Shown: in pieces, positions 10,910-64,000 of the stretch
Layout of the letters: each line of letters begins with the position of its first letter
Position numbering within the stretch: position 1 is the stretch's first letter
NCBI RefSeq assembly: GCF_026210795.1
Contig: NC_089457.1
Location: 1,984,001 to 2,048,000, forward strand
Reading direction: 5' to 3'
DNA from: Rhizophagus irregularis
Lineage: Eukaryota > Glomeromycota > Glomeromycetes > Glomerales > Glomeraceae
Length of the DNA: 64,000 bases
Notes under the pieces: model-generated
Told to the model about the DNA's origin: nothing
Seen by the model: only the letters and a program-made list of their open reading frames with translations
Databases searched by the model: none
Position numbers and translations under genes: made by a program

Positions 10910-13012
10910 GAAATTTGATATAATGGAACCATCCGTTCCAGTAAAAATATCCGGTATATTGAGACTTCTGATATATCAAAAAATTTTGATATACTGGATT
11001 TTATATATAAATCACATGAAATTCCATTATATCAAGTTTTTATTTGTGTGACATGTACGACGAACATTGAAAATTTTGATTATTTTTATTTAAAACATTA
11101 TTTGAGAAATTTTATACACTGTAATTAACTAAAACCTAAAAAAAACCATCTATTCTATCCTGTTTTTGCTTTTTCTTACTATCCGAAATAATTTTTTTCT
11201 TCAATTTAAACAAATTTTGCATATCTGAATTATCAATACTCAAATCATTTTGCCGAACATATCTAATTAATTTTTCAATGCTATTCAATGCATCAGAAGT
11301 AATAATAGTTTCATCTTCTTTCTCCTCCACATGTTCTTCTGCTGTATTTTGACCTCTAACCATATTAACAATCTCCTCTAATGTTAATTCTTCTTCAGTA
11401 ATTAATTCATCATCAATATTGATATATTCTTCCATATTTAAAAGATCTGTAATTGGTAATTCATTGATTAATAATTGTAAATCTTCAATATCATCTTCAA
11501 CTTCGCTATCATCACCATCAGAAGTATTAGATTCATCATCAGGAAGAATTTCAGCTTTAGCCCAACTATTAATGATTGTTTTTTTAGTTACCATTTTCCA
11601 AGCCTCAGCAATTAAATTGATAGAGTCAAGAATATCAACAGGAGGTGGAGTTTGATCTTCATATAAATCATAAGCCTGAATCTGATTTTTACACAATAAT
11701 TTACGGTATTGTGCTTTTAAGCTATAGATAATACGTGATCAAAGGTTGAAGATGGGAAGTTGTATTTGGAGGTAAAAAATGAATTTTAATATTTGATAAA
11801 TTGCTAATATTATCACAATCATGACACTTAGCATTATCCATTAATAAAATAATATGGCGCCTTTCTCTATTCATTTTTGAATTCAATCTTTCAAGAAAGT
11901 GGTTAAAAATACTTCTTTGCATCCATGCTTTTGAATTCCAGTAATACCAAACAGGAAGAGATTTCTTTTCAATTCCTTTTAATACACGTGGAGTTTCATA
12001 CTTATGAATAAAAAGTAAGAGTAATTTTTCATCACCAGATGCATTGCATGCTGCTAATATGCTAACTTGCTCTTTAGGACGTTTTTTTGCCAATTACTGG
12101 CGAATGTGCTATTGTTTTACATGGTAATAAACGCCAAAAAAGAGCAGTTTCATCGCAATTCCAAATATCTCTCAATTCATACTCTTGAAGAATTTCTTGC
12201 AATTCAGCTCTCATTTGTGGAATTTCACTAATTGGCGCACTTCCAGCTTCTCCCCTAATTTTAAATGTATGAAGATTATTTCTGTGTTTAAAATTACGCA
12301 ACCATCCTTCTGATGCTGAAAAATTATCAATATTAAATAATGTGGCAAACTCTTTTGCCTTTTCTTGAATAATAGGTCCACCTTCCGAGTAAAATCTCTT
12401 GAAATTTGCTGATGTTCTCGGATCTTAAGTGCCTCTTATTTTATCTGTGGATAATTACAAGTTTTTTCACGAAATCTATTTGCATTTGGCAAGATAGAAT
12501 TGATAGAGAGCGAATGTTCAGACTTTTTCAAAATGTCTGATACTGCACTATCAGAAATTTCATATTCTTTTGCAACGAACACCATCGAGATTTTGATCCC
12601 GACGTTTTTCACAAAGTTCTTTTTTTTGATTAAAGGTTAAAGTTTTTCTCTTTTTTTTTAGAATTATTATTATCAAATTGTTTTCTGTTAACTTTTCCCA
12701 TCTTTATTTTATTTTATGTAAAGAAGATTGTAATAAAAAAATTATCGTGTTGTTCAAAAAAAAAGAGATTATCTGTATCACGTGAAATACTGTAATTTTA
12801 TTGGTTTAAAAATGTGAATCGTCACGTGTTCTGGTATATCGAACTATTTTTATTATAACCGATCTGTTATTTGTTCCGTTATAGCTATTATCGAGATTTT
12901 ACTAATAAATTCTGTTATATCAAACTTATTTTAATATATGTGATTTAGTTCCAGAAAAAAGTTCCAGTATAAGGCCAGTTCCGGTTTATTGGGGTTCAGT
13001 TATATCGAATTT
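10910..13012 (-). mobile_element. pogo/Tigger-type DNA transposon, decayed
   Basis: About 2.1 kb. Imperfect terminal inverted repeats share AAATTTGATATAA (10911-10923) and its counterpart TTATATCGAATTT (13000-13012). The extra bases outside the shared core are hard to delimit. Comparison with copies A and C suggests insertion at a TA, as expected of the Tc1/mariner-pogo group. It carries the broken transposase at 12701-11136. Confidence 0.75.
11136..12701 (-). pseudogene. pogo/Tigger (CENP-B-like) transposase pseudogene
   Basis: Read right to left. A probable start at 12701 (MGKVNRKQ) is followed by a Lys-rich N-terminal helix-turn-helix region with at least two breaks. Next comes a CENP-B-type DNA-binding remnant ending FSASEGWLRNFKHRNN (about 12300), then the DDE core: NCDETALFW (first catalytic Asp, about 12150), LLMDNAKCH (second Asp, about 11830) and LPPNTTSHLQPL (about 11750). 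The acidic C-terminal part (11696-11136) is still open. Visible lesions are an extra A in an A-run near 12090, a small deletion right after HLQPL that removes the expected third catalytic Asp and shifts frame near 11740, and stops upstream of 12420. The product cannot be active as it stands. Confidence 0.88.
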
Positions 13013-15120: not shown

Positions 15121-16453
15121 AAGGACCCCGAATAATACTGATATAACTCACAAATGGGTTTGCGTAGAGTTTATATGAAATTACTTTTTAAACCCATAAA
15201 TTGAGTTTGCGTAGATCGGTCAATTTTGGGATAACTCACATATCACGTTTGCGTAGAGTTTATAAATATATTGCATTATATGTTGATCAATTGTATAATA
15301 TTGATAAAAATTAAGTTGCGCAAAACCATTAAGGATGGGTCCGTAATATATTTATGAAATTTGCAATATTACGGATTTTGGTAATTAATTGTATATAGTA
15401 ACAAAATGTAATGCATTTCGCATTATTTTAATATTTTTTAATAAAAAAAAGTGTGAAATGCACTACTTTAACAAAAAATGGTGAATTTCGCACCATTTTA
15501 TTAACATTTTAATAGAAAAAAGTGCGAAACGCACAATTTTAATAAATAATTGGTGAGTTTCGCACCATTTAATTAATATTTTAATATAAAAAAGTGCGAA
15601 ACGTACCATTTTATTAATATTTTAATAGAAAAAGTGCGAAACGCACCATTTTATTAATAATTTAATAGAAAAGTGCGAAACACACCATTTTAACAAAAAA
15701 ATCGAGAGTTTCGCACATTTTATTAATATTTTAATATAAAAAAGTGCGAAACGCACCATTTTAACAAAAAAATGGAGAGTTTCGCACCATTTTATTAATA
15801 TTTTAATATAAAAAAGTGCGAAACGCACCATTTTGACAAATAAATGGAGAGTTTCGCACCATTTTATTAATATTTTAATATAAAAAAGTGCGAAACGCAC
15901 CATTTTGACAAATAAATGGAGAGTTTCGCACCATTTTATTAATATTTTAATATAAAAAAGTGCGAAACGCACCATTTTGACAAATAAATGGAGAGTTTCG
16001 CACCATTTTATTAATATTTTAATATAAAAAAGTGCGAAACGCACCATTTTGACAAATAAATGGAGAGTTTCGCACCATTTTATTAATATTTTATTATAAA
16101 AAAGTGCGAAACGCACTATTTTAACAAATAAATGGTGAGTTTCGCATGATATTATTAATATTTTAATAGAAAAAGTGCGAAACGCACCATTTTAACAAAT
16201 AAATGGTGATTTTCGCACAATTTTATTAATATTTTAATAGAAAAAAGTGCGAAACACACTATTTTAATATAAAATGGTGAGGTTTGCATGATTTTATTAA
16301 TATTTTAATAGAAAAAATGTGAAATGAATTATATTAGTAACAAAAATTTTTTTGAACTAAGATTTGGATTTGCGTAGCGTTACTATGAAAAAAAAGTTAA
16401 TAGTAAATGCATGCCGATCATTTGTGAGTTATATTAGTATTATTCGGGGTCCT
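15121..16453. mobile_element. Terminal-inverted-repeat element carrying a 72 bp minisatellite
   Basis: The ends are AAGGACCCCGAATAATACT and AGTATTATTCGGGGTCCT; the inverted match extends about 35 bp inward to AACTCACAAATG. The 7 bp direct repeat ACTCTAC flanks it (15114-15120, 16454-16460). The adjacent tandem copy near 14920 shows the uninterrupted sequence. The interior (about 15415-16330) is a tandem array. A long open frame across the array simply reflects the 72 bp period and is not a gene. The 7 bp duplication is nearest the hAT class (8 bp), but no transposase is present to confirm it. Confidence 0.83.
15415..16330. repeat. Minisatellite, 72 bp unit, about 12 copies
   Basis: Each unit holds GTTTCGCACCATTTTATTAA, TTTTAATATAAAAAA, then GTGCGAAACGCACCATTTT. 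GTTTCGCAC and GTGCGAAAC are exact 9 bp inverted partners, so every unit can form a hairpin. The central units (15780-16090) are almost identical and the outer ones are diverged, which suggests recent homogenisation of the core. Confidence 0.88.
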
Positions 16454-26403: not shown

Positions 26404-29400
26404 TTACATTACCTGTTTATTAAATCCTCCAGGATTTTGCTGATTATTGAAACCCGGATTGGGTTTAAATCCTTGATTATTGAGTCCAAAGTTATTGTTT
26501 AAACCTTGATTTGGATTAATTCCTTGTGGATTTAATTCCATTTGATTCGGTTGGCCACCAAAACCAAATCCAGGAAATTGTTGAATGCCACTTACTCCAA
26601 AACTAGAAGTCTGTTGAGAAGTACCCATTACATTTTGATTCCAATTTGCATTCATATATCCACCTGGATTTTGCCCAAAACCCATTCCACCTAATCAAAT
26701 TCGATGTTAGTGAATAAATTTATTGAAAGACATAGAACAATAAATAATGTTTCAATTACTTGATGAGTTTATCTGAGAATTTGGGTGGTTAAAGATGCTC
26801 GGAGCATTAGGATCCACCTGTTTTAAAACAGAATATCTATCTGATGAAGCTGTAAATGAAATAATATGTATAACATTAAAGTATTTAAAGTTTCAAAGGA
26901 ACTCATTATTTAAATAATATATTTACCGTTAGCCCCTAAATTACTTGTTGGTGCAATTGGTCCGATTTTACCAGCTTTCATAGAAGCAAATACATTCTGA
27001 GGATCATATTTTGATTGCTGTGATTGAAGCTGTTGTGATTGAAGCTGTTGTGATTGAAGCTGTTGTGATTGAAGCTGTTGTGATTGAAGCTGTTGTGATT
27101 GAAGCTGTTGTGATTGAAGATGTTGTGATTGAAGATGTTGTGATTGAAGATGTTGTGATTGAAGATGTTGTGATTGAAGATGTTGTGATTGAAACTGTGG
27201 TTGATTAGATGATTGTAATTGAAGTTGCTGAAATTGATTTGTTGTTTGTTGTAATTGAAGTTGCTGAAATTGATTTGTTGTTTGTTGTAATTGAAATTGT
27301 TGTAATTGAGTTGAATTGTTATTGAATGAGGATTGTGGTCGTAATTGATTTGTGTTTGAATTAAATTGATTAGGCAAATTGACCCCTGATGTCGAATTTG
27401 ACGTTAAGCCTGAAAAAAAAAAATATTTCAGTATTTAAAGTATTGTATAAAGTAATGATGGATTTAACTTACCTGTAGAACTCCAAGTACTCATAGAGGA
27501 GTTAAAGTTGCCACCTGATCCCGGTAAATTCCCTGATTCCATCCCTTGGAAACTACCTGTAGAATTCGACCTTTGAATGTTCATTGTATTATTATTCATG
27601 TTATTATTAGATTTTGTAGGAACTAAAGGTGGATGAAGTGTACTGTTTAAGGGAACAACAACAGATTGTTGTGGAAGCGGAGGGGGTATTGGTGGAGGAG
27701 TTGGCTGGGATGATTGAATATTCATATTTGAATTTGAAGCAGTTGAATTCCAAGAATTCATATTAAATTGTCCAGATGTATTTGGGCTGGAACTCGTAAA
27801 TTGACTTAATGGAGGCAAGCGTGGTGATATTTGATTTTGATTTACAGTGAGAGCTGAACTATTTGGAGATAGATTAGCGGAGGATAAATTGGAGGGACGA
27901 ATAGGAATAGAAGGTGTAGTTTGTGGAACGGAATATGTTGGAGGCGGTGGTGGAGGCGGTGGTGGAGGTGGTGGTGTTGGCGCTTTTACTGTTGGTGCTT
28001 TTGCTGCAGGTACTAAGGGGGGTGTTAAGTTTTTTGGAACCCATGCATCATCATCAAATTTATTTTCAGATGTAGTTGATGATGATTTAAAAGCATCATC
28101 AAATGAGTCCTTAGCATTAGCAAGAGTTTTAGCGTCAATCTGAATTGATGCTGCCTTTGCAGGTTGGGGACGGGCTTTCTTTGTATTGTTTTTTAGCATA
28201 CCATTATTAGAAAAAAGTTGTGGTGGCGTTGTTGGAGGTGTCTTTTTCTCTTCCTTTTGTATAATTGAATCTAAATTACCATATAAATCAGCAACTTTAG
28301 GGATTTGACGCCCTTCACTGCGAGCTATTCTGTTTTCCTCTTCTTGAAGTTCCCTAGCCAATTGCTCATCACGTTTCATTTGCATTTTAAGATCAAATTC
28401 CGAAAGTTGTTGTGCCTTTTTGGCATCTTCCGACTATATATAAAATATAAATAGTCAATTCATTAATCGGAAAAACAAACAAACAAAAAAAACATTTCTT
28501 CAAACCTGAGTGTCCCTTGCACTTTGTTTATTTCTTGATTGTTTATCAATGTCATCAGGAATGACGCTTGTTGAGCCAAAACTAACGGTTCTCTTTTTCC
28601 CTAAGTTAAACTTTTGATCTATATATTTCTTAATCCTGATAATATCTCCTTCCTTGATGCCAAGTCCTTTCATAACATCACGATTGAGATCAGGTATAGT
28701 AGTTTCATCCATTTTCTCTGCAATAAACATTCCAGCATATTCAAATGCATCCTCATGTGAGACATCGGCACTAAGAAAGAAGTCATACCAATTATAATCG
28801 ATTGCATAATTATTTGCTAATCTCTCCTTGCCTTTATATGCAGCAGCAATAGCTGCTAGAGGAGTATCATCATTTTTGTCATATACTTTCTCTCCTGTTA
28901 TTTCTTCAAGATAAGCAAGATCTTCTTTACTCATTTTATCAACAGGTACTGCAATCTTAACACCATTAAGCTTATGAAGATGCACTTTGCCATCAACTAA
29001 TTGTAAAAATTCTGCTTCTACTCTAAAAGAACCCGTTCGATCAGTCCAGGTCCTTGTATTTGACGGAATTGGTTCTAAAAATTAAAAAAATTTTAAAACA
29101 TGAAATTATAATAAATGGAAACAAAAAAAATAAAACATACTTGATTTAGACTGTGCCTGTGCAGGCCTTTCAGGCAATGCGCGATTCGCAGGAGTCTGAA
29201 TTTTCTTTACAGCTGCTTCTTCTGAATAAAAAAGAGAAAAAAAAAAGAATTTAATAAATATAGTGAAATTGAAATAATAATAATAAGAGGCACTTTTAAC
29301 GGACAATGATAAACGATTAAATTTTTTACTCATGGTTATAATAAGAATAATGGAAAGCCATAAAACAATATATACCTAAAGAAGGATTTGCCCGAGTTGG

Positions 29401-31435
29401 TCGACCTGAAGAATTTAAGAGGTACATAATAATTAATTGTAGTGAAGCTTAATAAATAAACATTAATAGGTATCATACTTGATGAAACTGGGGGAGGTGG
29501 TGGCGGTGGCGGTGGTTGTGATTGGGCAGCTGCATTTCGTTTTTTCTCCTCTTGAGCACGTTTTTCTGCTTCTCGTTGTTTACGGTTTTCTTCTTCACGT
29601 TGACGCCTTTTTTCTTCTTCTTGTTTAATAAATTCTTCCTCTTCGAGCCGCTGGCGTTCTGCTTCGGCGGCGGCGGCGGCAGCGGCAGAGGCTTGTGCAG
29701 CCTTCTCGGCTTCGTTATCTTCTTCACTACGCAACTAATTTTAAATAGTATATTAGTTATCTTAATATTTTAATTTAAATTATTTAACAATCAGAAACAA
29801 ATCAATTGCATACTTCAATAAAAGAAGCAGGTACAACCCCTTCTTCATCGTCTTTTTTAATTTTCCACCATTCTTTACTGCTAACATCATCAATAACCCA
29901 TAATTCATCACCTTCACGTATTGAAACTTCATCATCTCCTTGTGCATTAAAATCATATAATGCTACACCAAATTTAGGGGAAGGTAACTCAAGCTCTTCT
30001 TCCCCCTCTTCCTCCTCAAGAACAGGATTTGACCCATTATCATGTTCTTCATACTGTTCATCTTCTTCATATTGAGACTCTTCAGACTCTATTGATTTAT
30101 GGGTTGATGAAGAACGTGAAGACATGGGTAATGTAGAACTAGCTATACTCGATCTAATTGAAGAATTATCCACCTTAACTGTAGGAATTTCTAAACTAGC
30201 ACGACAATCCTCGGCTTTTTGATAAATTTCTGTAATAATATTTTTATTTGCATGAAAATCAATCGTTCCTCCTTTAGAACCTCCAAATGTGAATGAAATA
30301 TTTTTTTTGTCTTTTTTAATTTCTATAATATCATTAATTTCCCATTGACGTACTGGCGCCTAAACATATAATTATAATCTTAGATAATGAAATTCAATAA
30401 TTTCGGAAATAAAATTAAATTAGGCATTACCTTATCAGATTCACTAGCAAAAATGACTTTTCCATTACCAATGACCAAAGCACCTTTTTTCTTTTGTTTC
30501 TTTTTGTCTCCTACAACTTCCTAAAAAGAAGAAATTTTTATTTAAATTTCAATAAAATTTTAAACCGATTTCAATATCTAAAGCCAATTAAAATTTACCG
30601 TAACAGACCAAGTCTTGCTTTCGATTGCTGATGATCCAGCTTTTGGGCGAGCAGCTTTTACTGCATATAATTTTAGTGGATCCACGTACGTATTATTTTG
30701 ATCGGATGCGCTCTATAACAGAATGAGAAGGTTGTCGATGAATAAATAAATCAGAAATCATAAACGATTTATTATACATACTGATAATGCGTCAAATAAT
30801 GATACTGTTTTAGGTTGATTTGTCTGGTTTTCAGAATTATCTTCATCTACATAATTCTCTTCTTGTACATCCTGCTCAACAGAATCCATAGATACCTATG
30901 TAATGTTATAATAAAAGAATTACTCTTTTAAAGAAAACAATCAAAAAAACAAAAAAAAAATTTTTATTGATATGACTTTACCTTTTCAACATAATTTGGC
31001 GGAATCATACCAAATACATTGTTAAATTTAACCAAATACCAACCATCCTCATCTTCTTCATAGAGATTTAATATATCGTCCTCTTTGAAAGATAATTCCT
31101 CTTCTGAAACAGCCTCATAATCCCAAAGGGCTTTTAAAACAGCAGTACATTCCGCCTAATTGTGAAGATCGCAAGTGGTGGGTTAAAGATCTGATGCCAA
31201 CGACGCATCAAGCCATATCTTAAAGACATACCTCCTGTATATAATTGCGAGGTACTACCCCGATCGAGTTTTCGGCTTCTTCAGCGTTTGAGATCTTTAA
31301 TTTTGCTTTCCACCAATCTTCGTCGTCATTTTCTAGTATATAAAGAACATCGTCTTCATGAAAAGTAAGCTCATCATCGGTTAGAGCCGTATAATCGTAA
31401 AGGGCCTTGCAAATATTAATGTAGTTTAAAGGCAT
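26404..31435 (-). CDS. SLA1: Sla1-like endocytic actin-patch adaptor
   Basis: Fourteen exons (minus): 31435-31232, 31155-30982, 30895-30782, 30712-30599, 30520-30431, 30359-29814, 29734-29479, 29405-29376, 29221-29141, 29074-28506, 28433-27473, 27409-26927, 26849-26760, 26690-26404; about 1,332 aa (yeast Sla1 is 1,244). Order: SH3-1 (CKALYDYTALTDDEL, residues ~10-65), SH3-2 (KALWDYEAVSEEEL, ~75-125), SH3-3 (FGVALYDFNAQGDDEV, ~350-413), a Glu/Arg coiled coil with polyproline (~415-499), the NPFxD-binding SHD1 (RTWTDRTGSFRVEAEFLQL, ~545-605), a SAM-like SHD2 (YNWYDFFLSADV), Pro-rich segments, then a Gln-rich repeat tail. It is an adaptor linking cargo, clathrin and Las17/WASP at endocytic sites. 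The stop at 26404 follows KQVM; splicing to a tiny last exon is possible. Confidence 0.94.
27005..27200 (-). repeat. Coding minisatellite in Sla1 (15 bp unit, about 12 copies)
   Basis: The unit GATTGAAGCTGTTGT (plus strand) is repeated about twelve times and encodes LQSQH then LQSQQ on the minus strand. The first half has the H variant and the second half the Q variant, in two blocks. A second shorter repeat (QFQQLQLQQTTN) follows at 27220-27300. Length variation would stay in frame. Confidence 0.88.
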
Positions 31436-32151: not shown

Positions 32152-34753
32152 TTAAAAAGATTTTAAGAACTCTGTTAAAATTTCCCGCAGTTTCTTATCA
32201 GTTGCATCAGAGATTACACCATCTTTTTTAATTGTCTCCAATACATCAGAGTGATTAGACGTCAAATGTGGAATGAGTGAAGATTCAAATTCAGTTACAC
32301 GTTTACTATCTATTTTATCCAAAAATCCGTGAACACCTGCAAAGATAAGAGGAACTTGATGTTCGGTTGACATTGGTCTATATTGAGGTTGCTACACAAA
32401 AAAAGAATAAATTTAGTATTCAATTTAGTTATTTTAAAAAAATACTTTTTAGTAGTAAAATTCATTAAAAACCTTTAAAAGTTCAACCAATCGTTCTCCA
32501 CGATTCAACAAGAAACGCGTTGAAGCATCCAAATCTGAACCGAATTGTGCAAACTAATCGATAGAAAAGTTAACGTGATTTTTCATAAATAACATAATAA
32601 AATATGGCATTTTTGTATTATACATACAGCAGCGACTTCACGATATTGTGCTAAGTAAAGTTTAAGGGATCCGGCGACTTGTTTCATAGCTTTGGTTTGG
32701 GCAGAACTACCTACTCTGCTTACCTGGATATTTATAATTAAATAATAATTTTAATTATATAGTTTTGCAATATATAAACTAAAATCAATACTTACGGATA
32801 TACCGACGTTAATGGCCGGACGTATACTAAAAGGTATTATTTATATAAATTAAATCCACAATTCAATTCTAACAAGCTAAACATATTAAATACTTCAAAG
32901 TTACCCTTTAAAGAAAAGTTCAGCTTCCAAGAAAATTTGACCGTCAGTTATAGAAATTACATTGGTGGGAATATAAGCTGACACGTCACCACCTTGAGTT
33001 TCAATAATTGGTAATGCAGTTAAAGAACCAGCACCATTTTGTTCATTCATTTTGGCGGCACGTTCTAATAGTCTAGAGTGAAGGTAAAACACATCACCAG
33101 GATAAGCTTCACGACCTGGTGGACGACGTAGCAACAATGACAATTGTCGGTATGCAACAGCTTGTTTTGACAAATCATCATAAATAATTAAACTATGTTT
33201 TCCATTATCACGGAACCATTCACCCATAGCACACCCAGAGAATGGTGCTAAATATTGAAGTGGTGCAGCTTCGGAAGCCGTAGCTGCTACAATAATTGAA
33301 TATTTCAAGGCATCTAAAAACGTACATATTTAAATATGCGAAATTTAGAAATTTAAATTTTAACCTTTCTATTAAAAAATTTCAAATTTACCATTTTCTT
33401 CTAAGGTTTGTACCAATTGGGCAACAGTCGAACGTTTTTGACCTACAGCAACATAAACGCAATATAATTTTTTGCTCTCATCATTGCCATCGTTCCATTT
33501 TTTTTGATTAAGAATTGTATCAAGAGCAACAGCAGTTTTTCCAGTTTGACGATCTCCGATAATCAATTCACGTTGTCCACGTCCAATTGGTACCATAGCA
33601 TCAACTGATTTTATACCAGTCTGCATAGGCTCATGTACGGAACGACGAGGAAGAATACCAGGAGCTTTAACTTGGACACGACTTCGTAATTTTGCTGCTA
33701 TAGGGCCTTTACCGTCGATTGGATTACCCAAAGCATCAACTACACGACCTAACAATTCCGGGCCAACCGGTACATCCACAATTTGACGAGTACGCTTTAC
33801 AGTATCGCCTTCCTTAATCAATCTGTCGTTACCAAATACGACAATACCAACGTTATCCGCTTCCAGATTGAGAGCCATACCCTAATTTTCCAATAAAGAA
33901 ATAAATATATGCCATATGATTAAAATCCCTTATATGACGTAAACACCATAATTATAGACATGCCTTAAGACCGCTAGAGAATTCCACCATTTCTTCCGCT
34001 TGGACGTTTCTAAGTCCGTATACACGAGCAATACCATCACCGATTGATAATACACGACCAGTTTCTTGAATTTCTGCACTGGAAGATACACCAAGGATGC
34101 GTGATTCCAAAACAGAGGAAACTTCGGAAGTGCCTTAATTTTTCGATGAAAAAAATAACAATTTAATTTATTTCTTGTTTCAAATAAAAAAAGTATTCTT
34201 AGAAATCTATAATTAGGCCGACTTGACCAATCATAATTTTACTAGATATATTTAAATACCTACTAGGTTTAGCTGCTGTTGCAAAATTACAAGCTGGAAT
34301 ACTGAATGCGCCTTTGTTTGCAGCGCGAACCTATTTTTTTTTTTAATTAATTTAATAAATTCAATTTTTTTAATTCTTGAAAAATAAATAATAATAATAC
34401 TATATAAAAAAAAGAAGAAATTGATCAATTGAAAAAATTCTCTTATTAATTGAAATTATCAAATTTATTATTTATAAAGCAGGAATTAAATTAATAAAGT
34501 CTTGGTATTTCGATACATTAAGCTTTTTTAACGTATGTATGTAATATATACACATACACACATATTTTTTTAAAAACAAATTTCGATAATGTCGTTCTAT
34601 CAAAGTTAATGAATATTTTTATCCCTTTTCAAATTCAGACAAAGAAATTTTTTTCCTTTAATAAATATTAGAAAAACATACAGTAACAGGAACAGTCCGG
34701 CGGACTAGTGTTGTCGCCAGGGGCGTAGCAACGCGCGCAACATATCTAAACAT
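32152..34753 (-). CDS. ATP1: Mitochondrial F1-ATP synthase alpha subunit
   Basis: Nine exons (minus): 34753-34682, 34330-34264, 34133-33964, 33881-33392, 33313-32905, 32826-32796, 32723-32628, 32553-32473, 32391-32152; about 551 aa (yeast Atp1 is 545). The Arg-rich start [19 protein letters not shown] is a matrix-targeting peptide. [16 protein letters not shown] precedes the nucleotide-binding core. The P-loop GDRQTGKT is at residues ~212-219, and the family signature [17 protein letters not shown], with the arginine finger, spans exons 6-7. The C-terminus is [16 protein letters not shown] to LTEFLKSF. As part of the F1 hexamer it holds the non-catalytic nucleotide sites. Intron 3 begins AAG|GCATGT and is GC-AG; the protein junction (GLK|GMALNLE) is invariant in the family, which supports it. 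Confidence 0.97.
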
Positions 34754-56100: not shown

Positions 56101-58239
56101 ATATTTATTTTTTTTATATATAACATGAAACCGAACAGACTTTTTTTTTAAAGTTTTTCTTTCCATTTATGAATGAAATGCGCATTTACAAATTTGATTG
56201 GGTAAATCAACATTAATTATCGATCATTATGTAACAACGATAAGGTTTATTACACGTAACTCCTCTTGATTAAACAAAAAAAATGACAGATGACAGACCG
56301 CAGCATACGAACAAAAAATATGCAAAAATATTTAAATTCCTTCTCCTAAAATAAAAGGGTTAAGTTATGATGTTTGAATTATAAACTTGAAACTCAAATC
56401 ATTTCTCCTTGATGATTTTCAAATTTTTTTCAAGTGTAACTCATTGTTCCAAATTAAAATTCTTTTTTTACGCAATTTTGTACAATATGATCGTAAAGGC
56501 GTAACTAAACCTATTAAACCTTATAGTCCGTAAATTCGGAACAAAATTAAAGGTCCGAATCTTGTGTTTTTTTACAATATTCAAAATTTTAAAATTATCT
56601 TATCAGATCATTAACCTAGCGATTCTAGGTTAAAATTATTTAATTTAATATATATAATAAAAAATTATACACATATAAAATTATAAATGACATTTTTATT
56701 TTGCATATGTCAACTGATTTATATTTATATGTATTATATTTGTTATATGTTTATATGTAATCAATTAATGAAAATAATATTATTACGTTTTGTCATTGTT
56801 AACCCAATATAATTATATAAAATATTGAAGTACAGCAGCTATCAAACATTGTCACATTGTTTTTAATATACTGGTTGATTATAAAAATTAATCTTTTTAT
56901 TTTTTTTTTGTAGGCTCGTTTTGTATATTTAAAAGATGTTTGGATAAAAAATAAATCAATTTCTGCCCAAAAATCAAAACTGAAACAAAGAAATTTATTG
57001 ATAATTCCCACGACGCCGCAGTACTTTTGCCCATATGCTAATAATTATATTAAGCAGGAGGCGTTAAAAATGTAAAGTAATGCGATAGATTGTCAGAACG
57101 TCACTTCATGTGAAACCAGCAAATGATATCATTTATTTAGTGTAAAGGAAATATTATTTTTTGTAACTCGTGATGATTTTCATTGAATTTATCCCAATTT
57201 TAATCTCAATCTACCCCACTTGACCTCATTTATTCATTTTACTCACTCTTTCCTTTCCTCTTTTTTTTTTATTATATATATATATATTATAATATATTTC
57301 AAACTTTAAAATATATATAATATTCAGATATATATATAAAAAAAACTTTTTTTTATCCATCACATTCATTTTTTTTTTTTCATTTTAACTATACTTTGTT
57401 AAGTCATATTCTGTTCTGTTGTTATCGTTCGACAAGTTCATACAACAACTTACTTCCGTTTTCTGTTCTGTTAAACTAATTACTACCATATCTTATCTTA
57501 CATAATATTTTCTTTTCCCCTTTTTTTTATTCGCATTCAATTTCCCCTTTTACTTTTTTTACTTTAAAAAAAAAAATTATTTTATTTTATTTTATTTTAT
57601 TTTATTTTATTATTTTTATTTTTTTCCTCCCTTAAATATATAAATATTCTTATAGAAAGTAATATATATTTTTTTTTTATAATATAAAATAGAAAAAAAA
57701 AACCGGTCGTATTTTTTAATACATACATATACTTACATATATATACAACTCATAAACCCTTTTTTTTTTTTTTAAAACATACAATAATAATATTCTTCTC
57801 ATTTTTTTTTTAAAGTGAAAAAAAAAAAAATTTTTTTTCTTCATCCAAAAAAAAATCCTTTCATCGAAAAAAAAAAATTATCTCCCTTTTTTTTTTAAAA
57901 AAAAAAACAAAACAAAATCTTCAAAGGACCAAAAGAAAAAAAAAGAAAAAGAAAAGAATTTTTTCTTCTTTAATTATTATTATTTTTTATTATTATTATA
58001 TTTTTTTTTAACAAAAAATTATAAAAAAAATAAATTAGGATTACTTTTTATATATATATATATATATATAGTATTATTATATTATTTAAATTTTTCAAAA
58101 AAAAAAAAGAAATCTCGAGTTCAATATATCTAATATCCCTTCCGGTATAAGAGAATATCTTTTGGTGGAATAAATATTTGTATCTTATCGAGAAATAAAA
58201 AGTTTTTTTATTTGACATTTATATAATATATATAAAAGT
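53166..58239. other. Divergent 5 kb intergenic region
   Basis: Shared upstream DNA of the Acl4-like gene (minus) and the MDM1-motif gene (plus). No coding frame or paired element ends. It contains ATTTATTT-type runs near 55690-55740 and many A/T homopolymers. A TTTTA tract lies at 57575-57615, with TA runs near 57280 and 58055. The last kilobase is a very AT-biased likely leader. Confidence 0.5.
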
Positions 58240-61200
58240 ATGACAGAAATAACGCCCACAATAACTCCGTCAACGAATTCCAATGATAATAATACAACTA
58301 CTACAACTATAATTCCACCAAATATTCCTCCGGACAATATTAATAATAGTGAATATCAAAGATCTTATTCATGGAAGTTACCAATGGTTAAAGTAAATAG
58401 ACCCAAAGAACGAACGAAATCTGAATATCAACGTGAATTTACATGGAAAAATGATCCTCCTTCAACCCCTTCTCCTGCTCCTTCTCCCGCTCCTATACCT
58501 CCTTCTCCAATACCACAAGAATTATCTTGTAATACTCCTGAACCAATAAAATCTACAATGATTGCGACTTCAACAGCAACAACCGTTAATAATAATATCG
58601 ATTTTATAGGATCAAAATTAAATGATTTAAATATTACTACAACAAGTAATACTATTAATAATAATATTAGTATTATTAATAATAATTTTATTCCTGATGA
58701 TTATGTTTTCAATACTAATAATAATGTTCCTGATAAATGGAGAGATGGTTTAAGAAGTAAAAATTCTCCAGAGGTAAGTTATTCCCTTTTTTGGTTAATT
58801 TCTTTTTTTTTTCTACTCCGCCCTAATTATTATATTATTTCCTTTTTTGTGTTGATAAGCAGAAACAATCATTAGCTTCAAATTTAGATCCTAAAACAAA
58901 AAAGATGGTAGCTTTAGAAGCTAATCGTCTTTCAAAAAAATCTCGTTCTTATTCAATGTATTCTTTACATGATCAATTAAAAGTACATGAAATTGCTGAT
59001 GATTTATCAAGTCCATATGATACTGAATATAATAAGGAATTTGTAAATTGGAAAGAATATGGTTCTGTTGTAAGGGAGGATATTAATAAGAAACGTCATT
59101 CAAATACTGATAATAATCATACTTTAAAAAGAAGAGGTTCTTGGTCTGCTCCTGCTACTTCTTCTCTTCCTGCTCCTCTTAAATGGATTGAAGATCTCAA
59201 CTTAGATCTTGGCTCACGTGCTAATACACGTGAGAAATTACAACCTACTATAACTGATTCTAAATCTATAAGGGGTATAACTACTACTATAACCGCTAAA
59301 TCTCATTCTCGTTTATCTCGTGATAATTACTATGATGAAAAACGTCCAACTACTTCTGCTGAAGTTCGGGATTACCGGTATGAAAGACCTACTACTTCTG
59401 CTGATATACGTGATTATTCTCGTCCTATGACTTCTTTAAATGATTATAATGATAAAGATTATTATGATTCAAAACGTAATAGTAATCTTGATTATTATTC
59501 TTATTCAAGAAAGGATCGTAATACTTCTCCTTTACGCTCTTCTACAACTCTTGATAATTATAAGGATATAAACGTTACAAGTAAATATTATGATACTCGT
59601 GAATATAATAATAATAGTAGTGGTAGAAGAGATTATGATGTTAGGAGGGATTATGATGGTAAGAAGGATTATGATTATTATGATGATCATAAGTATGATG
59701 ATCGTAGGAGAGAGGATATTTATGATGATCATCATCATAAGCGTGAAAATGGTTACGATGATCGTAGACGTGATTTAGTAAATGATGATCGTAGAAGAGA
59801 TAATGTTCATGATGATCGACAAAGAGATATTTCTACTTATGATTATGATTATCGTAGACGTGATAATAATAATAATAATAATAATAACAATAATAATAAT
59901 AATAATAATAATAGTAATTATTATTATGAAGATTATGATTCTAAATATAATAATAATCGAACTGTACACAATTCTGATCATGAACATTTTATTCCTGGCC
60001 ATTCTAGAAATACTTCTTACGCTTCTTACGCTTCTTCCTCAAATAAAGGTTCTTCCGTTCATGATGAACCTATTAATTACTCTGGACCTCCTCTTAGTTA
60101 TTTAGATGCTATGCGACATCGTTCAAGTGTTAGTTCTTTAAGTTCAGTATCAACTCCAAGTTCACCTGCAACTCCGATAGGTTATGATTTGAATGATATG
60201 CGTTGGAAGAGAAATAATGGTTTAGATCCTCGTATATATAAAGAACAAAATTATTCCCCTTCAGTAATTTCAAAATCTTCTTCAGGTTCAAATCATAAAT
60301 ATTGGCAATTTGAAGATGATAAAGATAAATATTATCAACCAAGTGCTTTAAGTCCTTCAAGAAGCAAATTTTATATAGATGATGAAGAAGAAGATGATGA
60401 ACATATTGAAGGTTATTCAAGTAAACGTCAATCCCGTGATTATAAACCTTCATCAATGAGATATTCTTCACAATATTCACCAACGAGATCAACGAGTCCT
60501 TCACGTGATAGTTATGGAAGTGGTAGGAAATATAAGTCTTCACGTCCTCCTTCACGTGCGACAAGTGTGAGTAGTCATGCTACTTCAATAGAAGAGGAAT
60601 CTGCAGTACTGACGGATCTTCTCAAAGAAGCTGAAATTATGACACTGAAGAATTTAACAGATCAAATGAGTATATTTAAAACAAGAGATTTGGGTATTGG
60701 AACCGGAATTGGTATCAAGGGTGTAAAGGGTGTAAAGAATTCTGGTCGTGCCACTCCTGCTGCTTCTGGTCGTGCTACTCCTTCTGTTTCTGGACGTGCC
60801 ACTCCTGCTGTTTCCGGACGTGCTACTCCTTCTGTTTCTGGACGTGCCACTCCTGCTGTTTCCGGCCGTGCCACCCCTAGTGTTAATGGTGCAAAGAGAT
60901 CTTCTCTTGGTGCTCAAAAGAAACCCACGACGACGACAACGGTGACGACAAGAGCAGCAGGTATTAAAACAAAAACAACGCCAACAATAAGAACATCTAC
61001 AAAACCAGGTGCAACCACCACTACTAGAGGAACCAAAAATAGTTCTACACCTGGAATTCCTCCTAATAAGAAGAAAACTCATCGTCCAGCTTCTTCATTA
61101 TCTTCAATATCTTCAACTTCTTCATATCGCGAAGCGTATCAGCCTCCACCGCCTCCAACAAATTTTTCTGCTGCAAGAGATGCTTTAAATAGAGCAAGAA

Positions 61201-61253
61201 TGAAGGTTGAAGAAATGTTAGAGATAGTAAGCAATGGTGGTTCTTTGGATTAA
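58240..61253 (+). CDS. Large disordered protein with MDM1-like SEYQR-F-W motifs
   Basis: Two exons: 58240-58773 and 58863-61253; about 974 aa. NSEYQRSYSWKLP (~38-50), KSEYQREFTWKND (~65-77) and DTEYNKEFVNWKEYG (~227-241) are three copies of a motif like the tubulin-binding repeat of animal MDM1. ALEANRLSKKSRSYS between the second and third resembles another conserved MDM1 stretch. The middle is rich in Asp/Arg/Tyr (repeated DDRRRD) with an Asn run, then Ser-rich. SGRATP-AV/SV repeats follow (~620-670), then a basic Thr/Lys region and a short C-terminal helix (AARDALNRARMKVEEMLEIV). The basic repeats and Ser/Pro content suit a microtubule- or filament-binding protein. Homology to MDM1 rests on short motifs and is inference. 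Confidence 0.75.
60739..60885 (+). repeat. Coding 24 bp repeat (SGRATPAV/SGRATPSV)
   Basis: Six copies of a 24 bp unit encode SGRATP followed by AV or SV, mostly alternating; the first copy has AA. The alternation gives a higher-order 48 bp period. RxTP is a basic-Ser/Thr-Pro context that proline-directed kinases often use (inference). Confidence 0.85.
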
Positions 61254-64000
61254 GAAAAAAAACAAAAAAAGAAAAAAGAAAAAGATCAATTTCAGATGAT
61301 ATTATCTTTTTTTTTTTGGTGATTAAACAATAAAGACATTTTTTTTTTATTCAGAGGATAACAGACTCTGTATCTACTGTATATTATTTTAAATGGTTTA
61401 TTTGAGATATTGTCAATTTTTTTTTTCGTCCATAATAATCTCAATAGAGGATTTTAGTTAGACAAGTTAATTATTCTTTACCGGATATCAAATATATCAA
61501 AAATATCAGTTATATAAATAGTGTCAGTATTTTTTTCTCTTTCATTATTTAGGAAATTTTTTTTTTTTTTGATGCATTCAATTAATATTCAAGATAGTCA
61601 ACAATTAGGAAATCAACTTTTTTTTTTTCATGGGAGCTTCTTTATTTTATTCTGGAAAATTTTAAATGGGCAAATCAAATTAAATAATATAACGAAAACT
61701 TATGACTTTTTTTTATTACCTCATTTTTCTACTATAGCATTTTTCACATATTTACCATATATACTATATCTCACCATATTGCATTTGAAAATTTCAATTT
61801 ATATATAACTCTGCATATAATTTCTTTCTACCTCCTTCTTCGAATTCCTCAATCATTTACATACTTTTATCATTAACTTGCATTATATATATATATAATA
61901 ATTTCATATTTTCATTACGATTTTACAATTTTTATCTGCATATTATAAGCTTTTTTTCTCATCCCTTTCTTGTAATATATATGTATTTTTTTTTCTTTGG
62001 ATCCAGATTCTTTGTTTATATTCTTTTTGGATTCAATGAATTTTTAATGAAACAAATCACAATTCAACCATCAATTTTATTTTTTATGATTTAACGAATA
62101 ACTTTTAACGAAACCATTTTTTTAACGACTAAATATATTTTATAATGATTTTTTTTTAACTCTTGCATGTTTTTTTTCAACACATTTTTTCACAAAAAAA
62201 AAAAAAAAAAAAAATTTATCAACAAAAAAAAAATCAAAAAAAAAATCATTCATATTCTCTGCCCATTACTTAATTTTTCTTATTACATAGAGAAGTTCCC
62301 TCTCATATTTTAATTTTATTTTTGAGTGATTAGTTCTTTTACTCCAATGCACAAAAAAAAAAATATTAATTACGTGATTAGCACCTTTGCACTTCTCTAG
62401 AAAGAAAAAAAATACTGGAATTACTGGAAATTATTATTTTTATCATTAATAATATATTTATTTGTTACCATTCCAAGATTATATTTTTTATTAAAAAATG
62501 TTATTTGATATAACTTTTTCCTTAATTTGATTCACGGTTACCATTTGAATCATTCAATTATCAAATTTGTGAAATATTTATAAATTATAGAAAGAAAAAA
62601 AGAAAAGAAAAGAAAAGAAAAGAAATTAAACCGGTAAAGAATGATGAGTATATATATATTTATTTATTTATTTAATTGATCAATTGATATAGAATGTATT
62701 ACTTTTTTTTTATTTTTTATATAGAATTTTGGGTGTATTATTTTAGGGTGAAAAAAAAAATATAATAATTTTTCTTGTGGTGATATAATGGGTTTTTTTT
62801 TATAGTCCTTTTTTTTTTTTTCTCTCTCTCTCTTGTATTTATATATTGTATACGATAAAATATTTTTCCATATATATTATTTAAAAAAAAAATAATTTTT
62901 TTTTAAAAATAAAAAATTTATTTATTTATTTACTTTTTGAACTTGTAAAAAAAAATTATTGTCGTATCATGTTATCTTAGAAATTTTCGCGCTTATGATC
63001 ATTCTCGTATGTTTCGTCTTGTCTTGTATGTATGACCATTCTCGTATATCTCGTATGTATATATCCTCATTTGTATTTGATCATTCTGTATATCTCGTAT
63101 GATATATCTCATTTGTATTGATCATTCTCCTTTCGGGTCACCTATAATTATCATATTTATGATTATCATATCCACTATTAACATTCGTAATGATCAAGGG
63201 TTATAAAAGGAGAAATATTAATGATCACTATTATAACATCATAACCATACGTAAGGATTTACATGGGATTTCAGAATAAGCCACGTTTTTTCATTTTACT
63301 TAATGGATTCATATAGTTTTGTATAGATCTCCGTCAATTGACATATTGCGCCCCAAAAAAGATTTCTATCGTCAGGACAACTGATGGAAAAATGACTTTA
63401 TTTAATTACAGGCATACATAGAATCTTTGGAGGCAACAATTTACACATTTTAGTTCAGATCATTAACAAGATTACGTCAAATACAGATCACAGGATTCAA
63501 CTAAAAAAATAAGGGATTTGTACTTGATAAAGTTATCAGTGACAGGAGTAATAACTTGTCATAGTGTTTATAGTAAGATAATGGAACGCACTTCATTACC
63601 AAATATAAAAAAAAGAATGAAAAGTTACTCAAGTTCAAATATTGTAAAATTTTAAATTATTGTAAAATTTTAAATTATTTAATTGTAATTAACTTGTAAT
63701 ATATATAATATTGCAAATTAATAATTAAATTAATAAATTTAAATTATTAGTTGTAATTTAATTAATTTAATTCCAAAATTTTGTAAATATATATAATATT
63801 GCAGATTTAAAAAAATCAAATAATTACATTTTTTTTATATATATTTAAAATCTAATTAAAAACAATTTTATTTTTAATATTTAAAAATCCAATTATTAAA
63901 TTGTTTAATCTTTTTATTTTTATTGCTGTTTTCTAATTACTGTGATCTAGCATTATTTAATAAAAAAAAAAAAATTTTGAGAAAATATGTGAAAATAAAA
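61254..64000. other. AT-rich region after the last gene
   Basis: No coding frame recognised. The first few hundred bases are probably 3' UTR. A short tandem duplication lies at 62990-63130. AAAAG repeats occur near 62595-62620 and a CT run at 62820-62835. TTGTAAAATTTTAAATTA is duplicated at 63640-63680. Confidence 0.5.
62990..63130. repeat. Short interspersed direct repeats (ATCATTCTCGTATG)
   Basis: GATCATTCTCGTATG, ACCATTCTCGTATATCTCGT, GATCATTCTGTATATCTCGT and GATCATTCTC recur within 140 bases. They are separated by TATATCTCATTTGTATT-type words and form three to four degenerate units. Confidence 0.65.

Follow-up and report, generated by a model that had tools for sequence, protein, structure and literature searches.

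The question raised by this locus is whether a fungal gene codes for a microtubule-binding protein of the animal MDM1 (SAXO6) type and, if so, what such a protein would do in a fungus that may be without centrioles. Yeast Mdm1 (mitochondrial distribution and morphology), which we take to be an unrelated protein with the name alone in common, should not be confused with it. The locus is part of a stretch of 64,000 nt with a G+C content of 26.9%, here called the window, in which scans for tRNAs and Rfam families gave nothing. Positions 58240-61253 of the plus strand read as one two-exon gene, predicted from the sequence alone, that would give a spliced product of 974 aa; the region is a single gene only if an 89-nt GT-AG intron is removed. 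Exon 1 (58240..58773, aa 1-178) has an ATG start, an open frame and a GT donor and holds the first two of the motifs described below. It is followed by the predicted intron (58774..58862, GTAAGT...AAGCAG, with CTAA at 58823) and by exon 2 (58863..61253, aa 179-974 and the stop codon), which is an open frame. Without splicing, the frame of exon 1 ends at a stop at 58875 after 211 aa; the spliced frame stays open from its ATG at 58240 until the stop codon whose last base is 61253. Upstream of the ATG, an in-frame stop is found at 58213, and a possible polyadenylation signal, AATAAA, is located at 61329..61334 on the same strand. Cysteine accounts for 0.1% of the 974 residues. The region of aa 761-940 (60609..61148, plus strand) is strongly basic, with a computed pI of 11.7 and a net charge of about +23, and contains SGRATP repeats. 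These units are encoded by a 24/48-bp tandem repeat at 60740-60878, and a trinucleotide repeat at 59863-59918, also inside the gene, codes for poly-Asn; the length of both repeats could differ among strains.

The initial annotation had pointed to three copies of an SEYQR-F-W-type motif and to a LEANRLSKKSRSYS box in this gene, and the spliced translation as well as a pattern scan of all six frames confirmed the three copies and the box at these places. Along the protein, the order is SEYQRSYSW (motif 1, aa 37-45, 58348..58374), SEYQREFTWK (motif 2, aa 61-70, 58420..58449), LEANRLSKKSRSYS (aa 196-209, 58914..58955) and TEYNKEFVNWK (motif 3, aa 232-242, 59022..59054), all on the plus strand. The third of these elements, referred to as the LEA box, resembles SLEASRVPKRTRSHS of human MDM1 by pattern and alignment score. 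The motif type itself has to be worded more loosely than before: three copies are there, but SEYQR is present in only two of them, one of which has Tyr instead of Phe, and motif 3 is degenerate, with an extra residue before the Trp. In all three, Ser/Thr and Phe/Tyr are six residues apart (S37-Y43, S61-F67 and T232-F238). Motif 2 starts 24 residues after motif 1, and motif 3 starts 171 residues after motif 2. The rarity of the motifs was estimated from shuffles of the protein, with patterns for motif and box that had been drawn up with the motifs of this gene in view. Of 20,000 shuffles, 13 contained the pattern [ST]EYx3[FY]x1-2W and none contained two copies of it; for the looser pattern [ST]EYx3[FY], 743 shuffles had one copy or more, 15 had two and none had three. 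A six-frame translation of the window (127,996 residues) has three matches to the stricter pattern, each of them in this gene; both occurrences of [ST]EYQR and the sole match to the LEA box pattern lie inside it as well.

The initial annotation had likened the motifs to animal MDM1 and had named an HMM-HMM search with the MDM1 profile as one way to check this. In Pfam-A (24,736 models) this family is PF15501, with a curated gathering cut-off of 27 bits. With exon 1 as query, MDM1 was the best family (E = 0.013, 14.9 bits; second MCLN_ECD, E = 0.11), and with a 40-aa piece containing two motifs it was again the best (E = 0.0041, 16.5 bits; second GmrSD_N, E = 0.15), values whose significance is inflated somewhat by the post-hoc choice of the pieces. 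PF15501 was matched by none of the nine composition controls that were scanned, which were shuffled or reversed sequences other than the reversed exon 1. To this extent the profile argues for MDM1, but the 16.5 bits of the best piece stay below the gathering score of 27 bits, and the full spliced protein matched no Pfam family, perhaps because low-complexity stretches drown the score. A 153-aa concatenate of the motif regions matched MDM1 at an E-value of 0.2 only, and pieces that covered the LEA box or motif 3, singly or together, had no MDM1 match in Pfam. Two C-terminal pieces, which hold predicted helices, matched no Pfam family; in human MDM1, a C-terminal segment is reported to interact with the coiled coil of POC1 (PMC11564547). 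The sole match of a 93-aa piece, DUF3023 (E = 0.068), was taken as chance.

For a direct comparison the sequence of human MDM1 was used; this query scores 843 bits across the whole Pfam MDM1 profile. Motif 2 has 8 of 10 residues identical to human motif 1 and likewise to human motif 2, and either score was reached by none of 3,000 shuffles. Moreover, motifs 1 and 2 have Glu+1, Trp+8 and Lys+9 in common with these two human motifs. The scores of human motifs 3 and 4 in this protein were matched or beaten by 198 and 478 of 3,000 shuffles, respectively. With human motif 3, a higher score comes from an unrelated ORF of the window (31) than from this gene (29). The LEA box scored 43 with the human MDM1 box, and none of 5,000 shuffles reached this value (maximum 42); outside the gene, the best scores among the 505 stop-to-stop ORFs of at least 40 aa were 32 and 28. 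The human box, LEASR...KRTRSHS, falls in positions 95-128 of the PF15501 profile. A MAFFT alignment placed motif 2 and the LEA box opposite human motif 1 and its box, with the order kept. Significant similarity along the whole length of human MDM1 was not found by phmmer or blastp. In the phmmer search, with human MDM1 up to residue ~375 and 1,506 sequences including 1,000 shuffles, first place went to the unspliced exon 1 ORF (E = 0.016), followed by a shuffle (0.049) and then by the spliced protein (0.43); blastp listed five shuffles, and the studied protein was absent. The term "MDM1-type" applies to roughly 35-45 of the 974 residues, since the Pfam matches are piece-wise and a full-length match is lacking. 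It is upheld by the top Pfam family of the motif region, by the clean controls and by the order motif-box-motif, but not by the score relative to the cut-off, nor by the whole protein in Pfam or phmmer. Judged by these comparisons, the motif evidence is good and the whole-protein homology to MDM1 is weak, and the product is perhaps related to MDM1 (SAXO6), though very remotely.

A similarity confined to so few residues could also have arisen by convergence. The gene would then code for a disordered Ser/Asn/Asp-rich fungal protein with a duplicated SEYQR and a basophilic phosphosite, KKSRSYS, which is unrelated to MDM1 or tubulin and whose peptides serve, for example, scaffold or 14-3-3 protein binding. 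We regard this as a serious, if minority, possibility. It would agree with the non-significant full-length match to human MDM1 in phmmer and blastp; R-S-x-S is a common kinase-site pattern, and the motif copies are not independent of each other if they derive from a single internal duplication, as they may. It is harder to reconcile with the shuffles, in which two motif copies were found in 0 of 20,000 and the box score in 0 of 5,000, and with the finding that motif, box and order all agree with one family, MDM1, which 0 of 9 composition controls matched.

In the Mn motif of SPM1, FAP363, SAXO and MAP6 proteins, Ser/Thr and Phe/Tyr are found at positions 6 and 12, and these two residues delimit a short helix that is bound at the alpha/beta-tubulin interface in the microtubule interior (PMC8144581). 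MDM1 is reported to have several Mn repeats, the minimal form of the motif being given as [TS]-[TS]-X4-[YF], and Mn motifs are described from many otherwise dissimilar proteins (PMC10973386). According to PMC13087473, MDM1, renamed SAXO6, is highly unstructured, its motif region cross-links to alpha-tubulin and it is possibly a lumenal protein. MDM1 probably docks on tubulin by this motif, like SAXO, MAP6 and SPM1 proteins. Our preferred reading, to which we give an even chance, is that the product of this gene is an intrinsically disordered Mn-motif (SAXO/MAP6/MDM1) microtubule binder with animal MDM1 (SAXO6) as its closest counterpart. What the analysis shows is the open gene model and the presence, order and rarity of the motifs; we infer from this that the protein descends from MDM1, binds tubulin, has a lumenal site and plays a role in the cell. 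With Mn motifs so widespread in dissimilar proteins (PMC10973386) and the gathering score of PF15501 not reached, tubulin binding could be right and the name MDM1 wrong, the motifs having been gained independently of MDM1 or the protein belonging to another Mn branch. This is unlikely in our view, since Glu+1, Trp+8, Lys+9 and the LEA box are in common with MDM1 and the lists of Pfam matches for the scanned pieces include no other Mn family.

The structure was predicted with AlphaFold in single-sequence models, which are of low confidence throughout. The pLDDT was below 50 for 739 of the 796 residues of exon 2 and for 147 of the 178 residues of exon 1, and the low values of the exon 2 model agree with the highly unstructured state that PMC13087473 describes for SAXO6. 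A predicted helix at aa 61-70 corresponds exactly to motif 2, and another at aa 188-207 runs into the LEA box. In the same low-confidence models no helix is drawn for motifs 1 and 3, which leaves one of the three copies helical. Further helices are predicted at aa 754-780 (60588..60668, plus strand) and, at the C-terminus, at aa 945-968 (61161..61232, plus strand); the model of exon 1 has four weak strands within aa 107-146.

If the protein is a microtubule binder most like MDM1, docking at the alpha/beta-tubulin interface would turn each [ST]-E-Y-x3-[FY] motif into a short helix, and the two motifs 24 residues apart, together with the third one 171 residues further on, would link neighbouring tubulin dimers. 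SPM1 has 32 residues per 8-nm repeat and the motifs of FAP363 span two neighbouring protofilaments (PMC8144581), so that a spacing of 24 residues would leave little slack within a single protofilament and may be a better fit for neighbouring ones. The basic C-terminal region would add affinity for the acidic surface of the microtubule or for a partner. Microtubules of the hyphae or the spindle would be stabilised in this way, possibly from the lumen.

Contig collections were searched for relatives with the first 279 aa as query. Among prokaryote genome contigs there were 53 pattern matches, none of which was confirmed, and among viral contigs 35 pattern matches and 48 with alignment, none confirmed either way; because these collections consist of prokaryotes and viruses, the lack of relatives says little. 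In a search of the PDB by sequence, neither the 40-aa two-motif piece nor human MDM1 had a match, and since the human query too gives nothing, this search misses the known Mn structures. The five PDB matches of the first 279 aa, the best of them to phage abortive-infection proteins (E = 0.44), were taken as chance. The papers listed in a survey of the literature on MDM1, SAXO or the Mn motif with fungi, judged by titles and the starts of abstracts, yielded no fungal MDM1 or Mn protein, and the words MDM1 and SAXO are absent from the main text of an atlas of the fungal flagellum (PMC13358043). Human MDM1 is described in PMC5033493 as similar solely to the MDM1 proteins of metazoans; PMC13087473 refers to a proposed MDM1 orthologue in Chlamydomonas, FAP363, so the restriction of MDM1 to animals is not agreed upon. 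For SAXO, PMC3280300 reports orthologues neither from fungi nor from some flagellates, with Cryptosporidium as a non-flagellated exception.

Elsewhere in the window, an ORF on the minus strand (11725-12093) has a DDE_1 transposase domain and is adjoined by an ORF without Pfam match (11139-11696); the two, within 11136-12093, are perhaps remnants of one element. At 15416-16324 there is a tandem array of a 72-bp unit (~12.6 copies, 88% matches), which is overlapped by a repetitive open frame of 164 aa on the minus strand (15622-16116). Between 26910 and 30173, also on the minus strand, ORFs with SH3 (29805-30173) and SHD1 + SAM domains (28503-28985) together resemble the endocytic adaptor Sla1 in their predicted domains, the arrangement SH3, SHD1, SAM presumably being that of fungal SLA1. 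Beside them, a 15-bp repeat at 27019-27198 codes for a Gln-rich stretch. Mitochondrial ATP synthase alpha is encoded in part by an ORF at 33375-33878 on the minus strand; in the PDB its top matches, such as 2hld (293 bits), which we take to be the yeast enzyme, outscore chains labelled bovine (271 bits). A candidate for the next exon of the same gene is the ORF at 32901-33308. By these ORFs the window is likely to come from a fungus, and a Glomeromycota-like lineage is a guess from its composition.

Where an MDM1-like protein would act depends on the fungus. It may be flagellated or have centrioles at some stage, in which case the protein would simply be an Mn protein of the centriole or axoneme; such a case overlaps with the reading as an MDM1-like microtubule binder and differs from it in the site of action. 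A G+C content of 27% and the mitochondrial ATP synthase alpha gene suit Glomeromycota-like terrestrial fungi better than the AT-rich anaerobic chytrids, which is a weak point against a flagellated fungus. Flagellated fungi are described to retain the gene sets for centriole and flagellum (PMC13358043), as this explanation would have it, and we nevertheless consider it quite improbable. In terrestrial fungi the loss of the flagellum is tied to the loss of centrioles (PMC1599754). Within the preferred reading of an MDM1-like microtubule binder, a non-flagellated, centriole-free fungus might have retained an Mn protein of the MDM1 lineage since the common ancestor with animals, as a lumenal stabiliser of cytoplasmic or spindle microtubules; this we put forward tentatively and hold to be rather doubtful. 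If it is true, the MDM1/SAXO class reaches beyond cilia and centrioles. Known non-axonemal uses of Mn proteins are at the cortical microtubules of apicomplexans and, with MAP6, in neurons. A fungal example, especially one from a centriole-free lineage, would reveal the job that this motif class has after the organelle has been lost, and would also provide fungal microtubules with a candidate for a lumenal protein.

Among the known systems, MDM1/SAXO6 of animals (PF15501) shares with the predicted protein the copies of [ST]-E-Y-x3-[FY], Trp and Lys after two of them, the LEAxR...K..RSxS box between motif copies and the mostly disordered chain. The two differ in the positions of the motifs, which are at 9-21, 189-201, 232-244 and 306-318 in the human protein (PMC13087473) and start at aa 37, 61 and 232 here; moreover, one is from animals and the other from a fungus, whose exon 2 pieces scanned here had no PF15501 match. 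Compared with the minimal Mn form [TS]-[TS]-X4-[YF], Glu is in second place in the fungal motifs, as it is in the human MDM1 motifs. The SAXO motif contains [TS][NT]YRS[ED][FY] (PMC3280300), with which all three motifs share the Tyr at +2 and motifs 2 and 3 the Glu at +5. SAXO1/SAXO2, TbSAXO and MAP6/MAP6d1 likewise have Ser/Thr and Phe/Tyr six residues apart, but the fungal protein has neither the Gly-Pro-Lys-Pro-Leu-Pro tail nor the cluster of N-terminal cysteines that PMC3280300 describes for this group, and the N-terminal cysteine-rich motif 1 of SAXO proper (SAXO1/2, TbSAXO) was not found in this cysteine-poor protein. Toxoplasma SPM1, which is lumenal in non-axonemal cortical microtubules, also carries its Mn motifs on an extended chain; it has six tandem repeats of 32 residues (PMC8144581), in contrast to three irregularly spaced motifs in the fungal protein, and is a precedent for acting on singlet microtubules.
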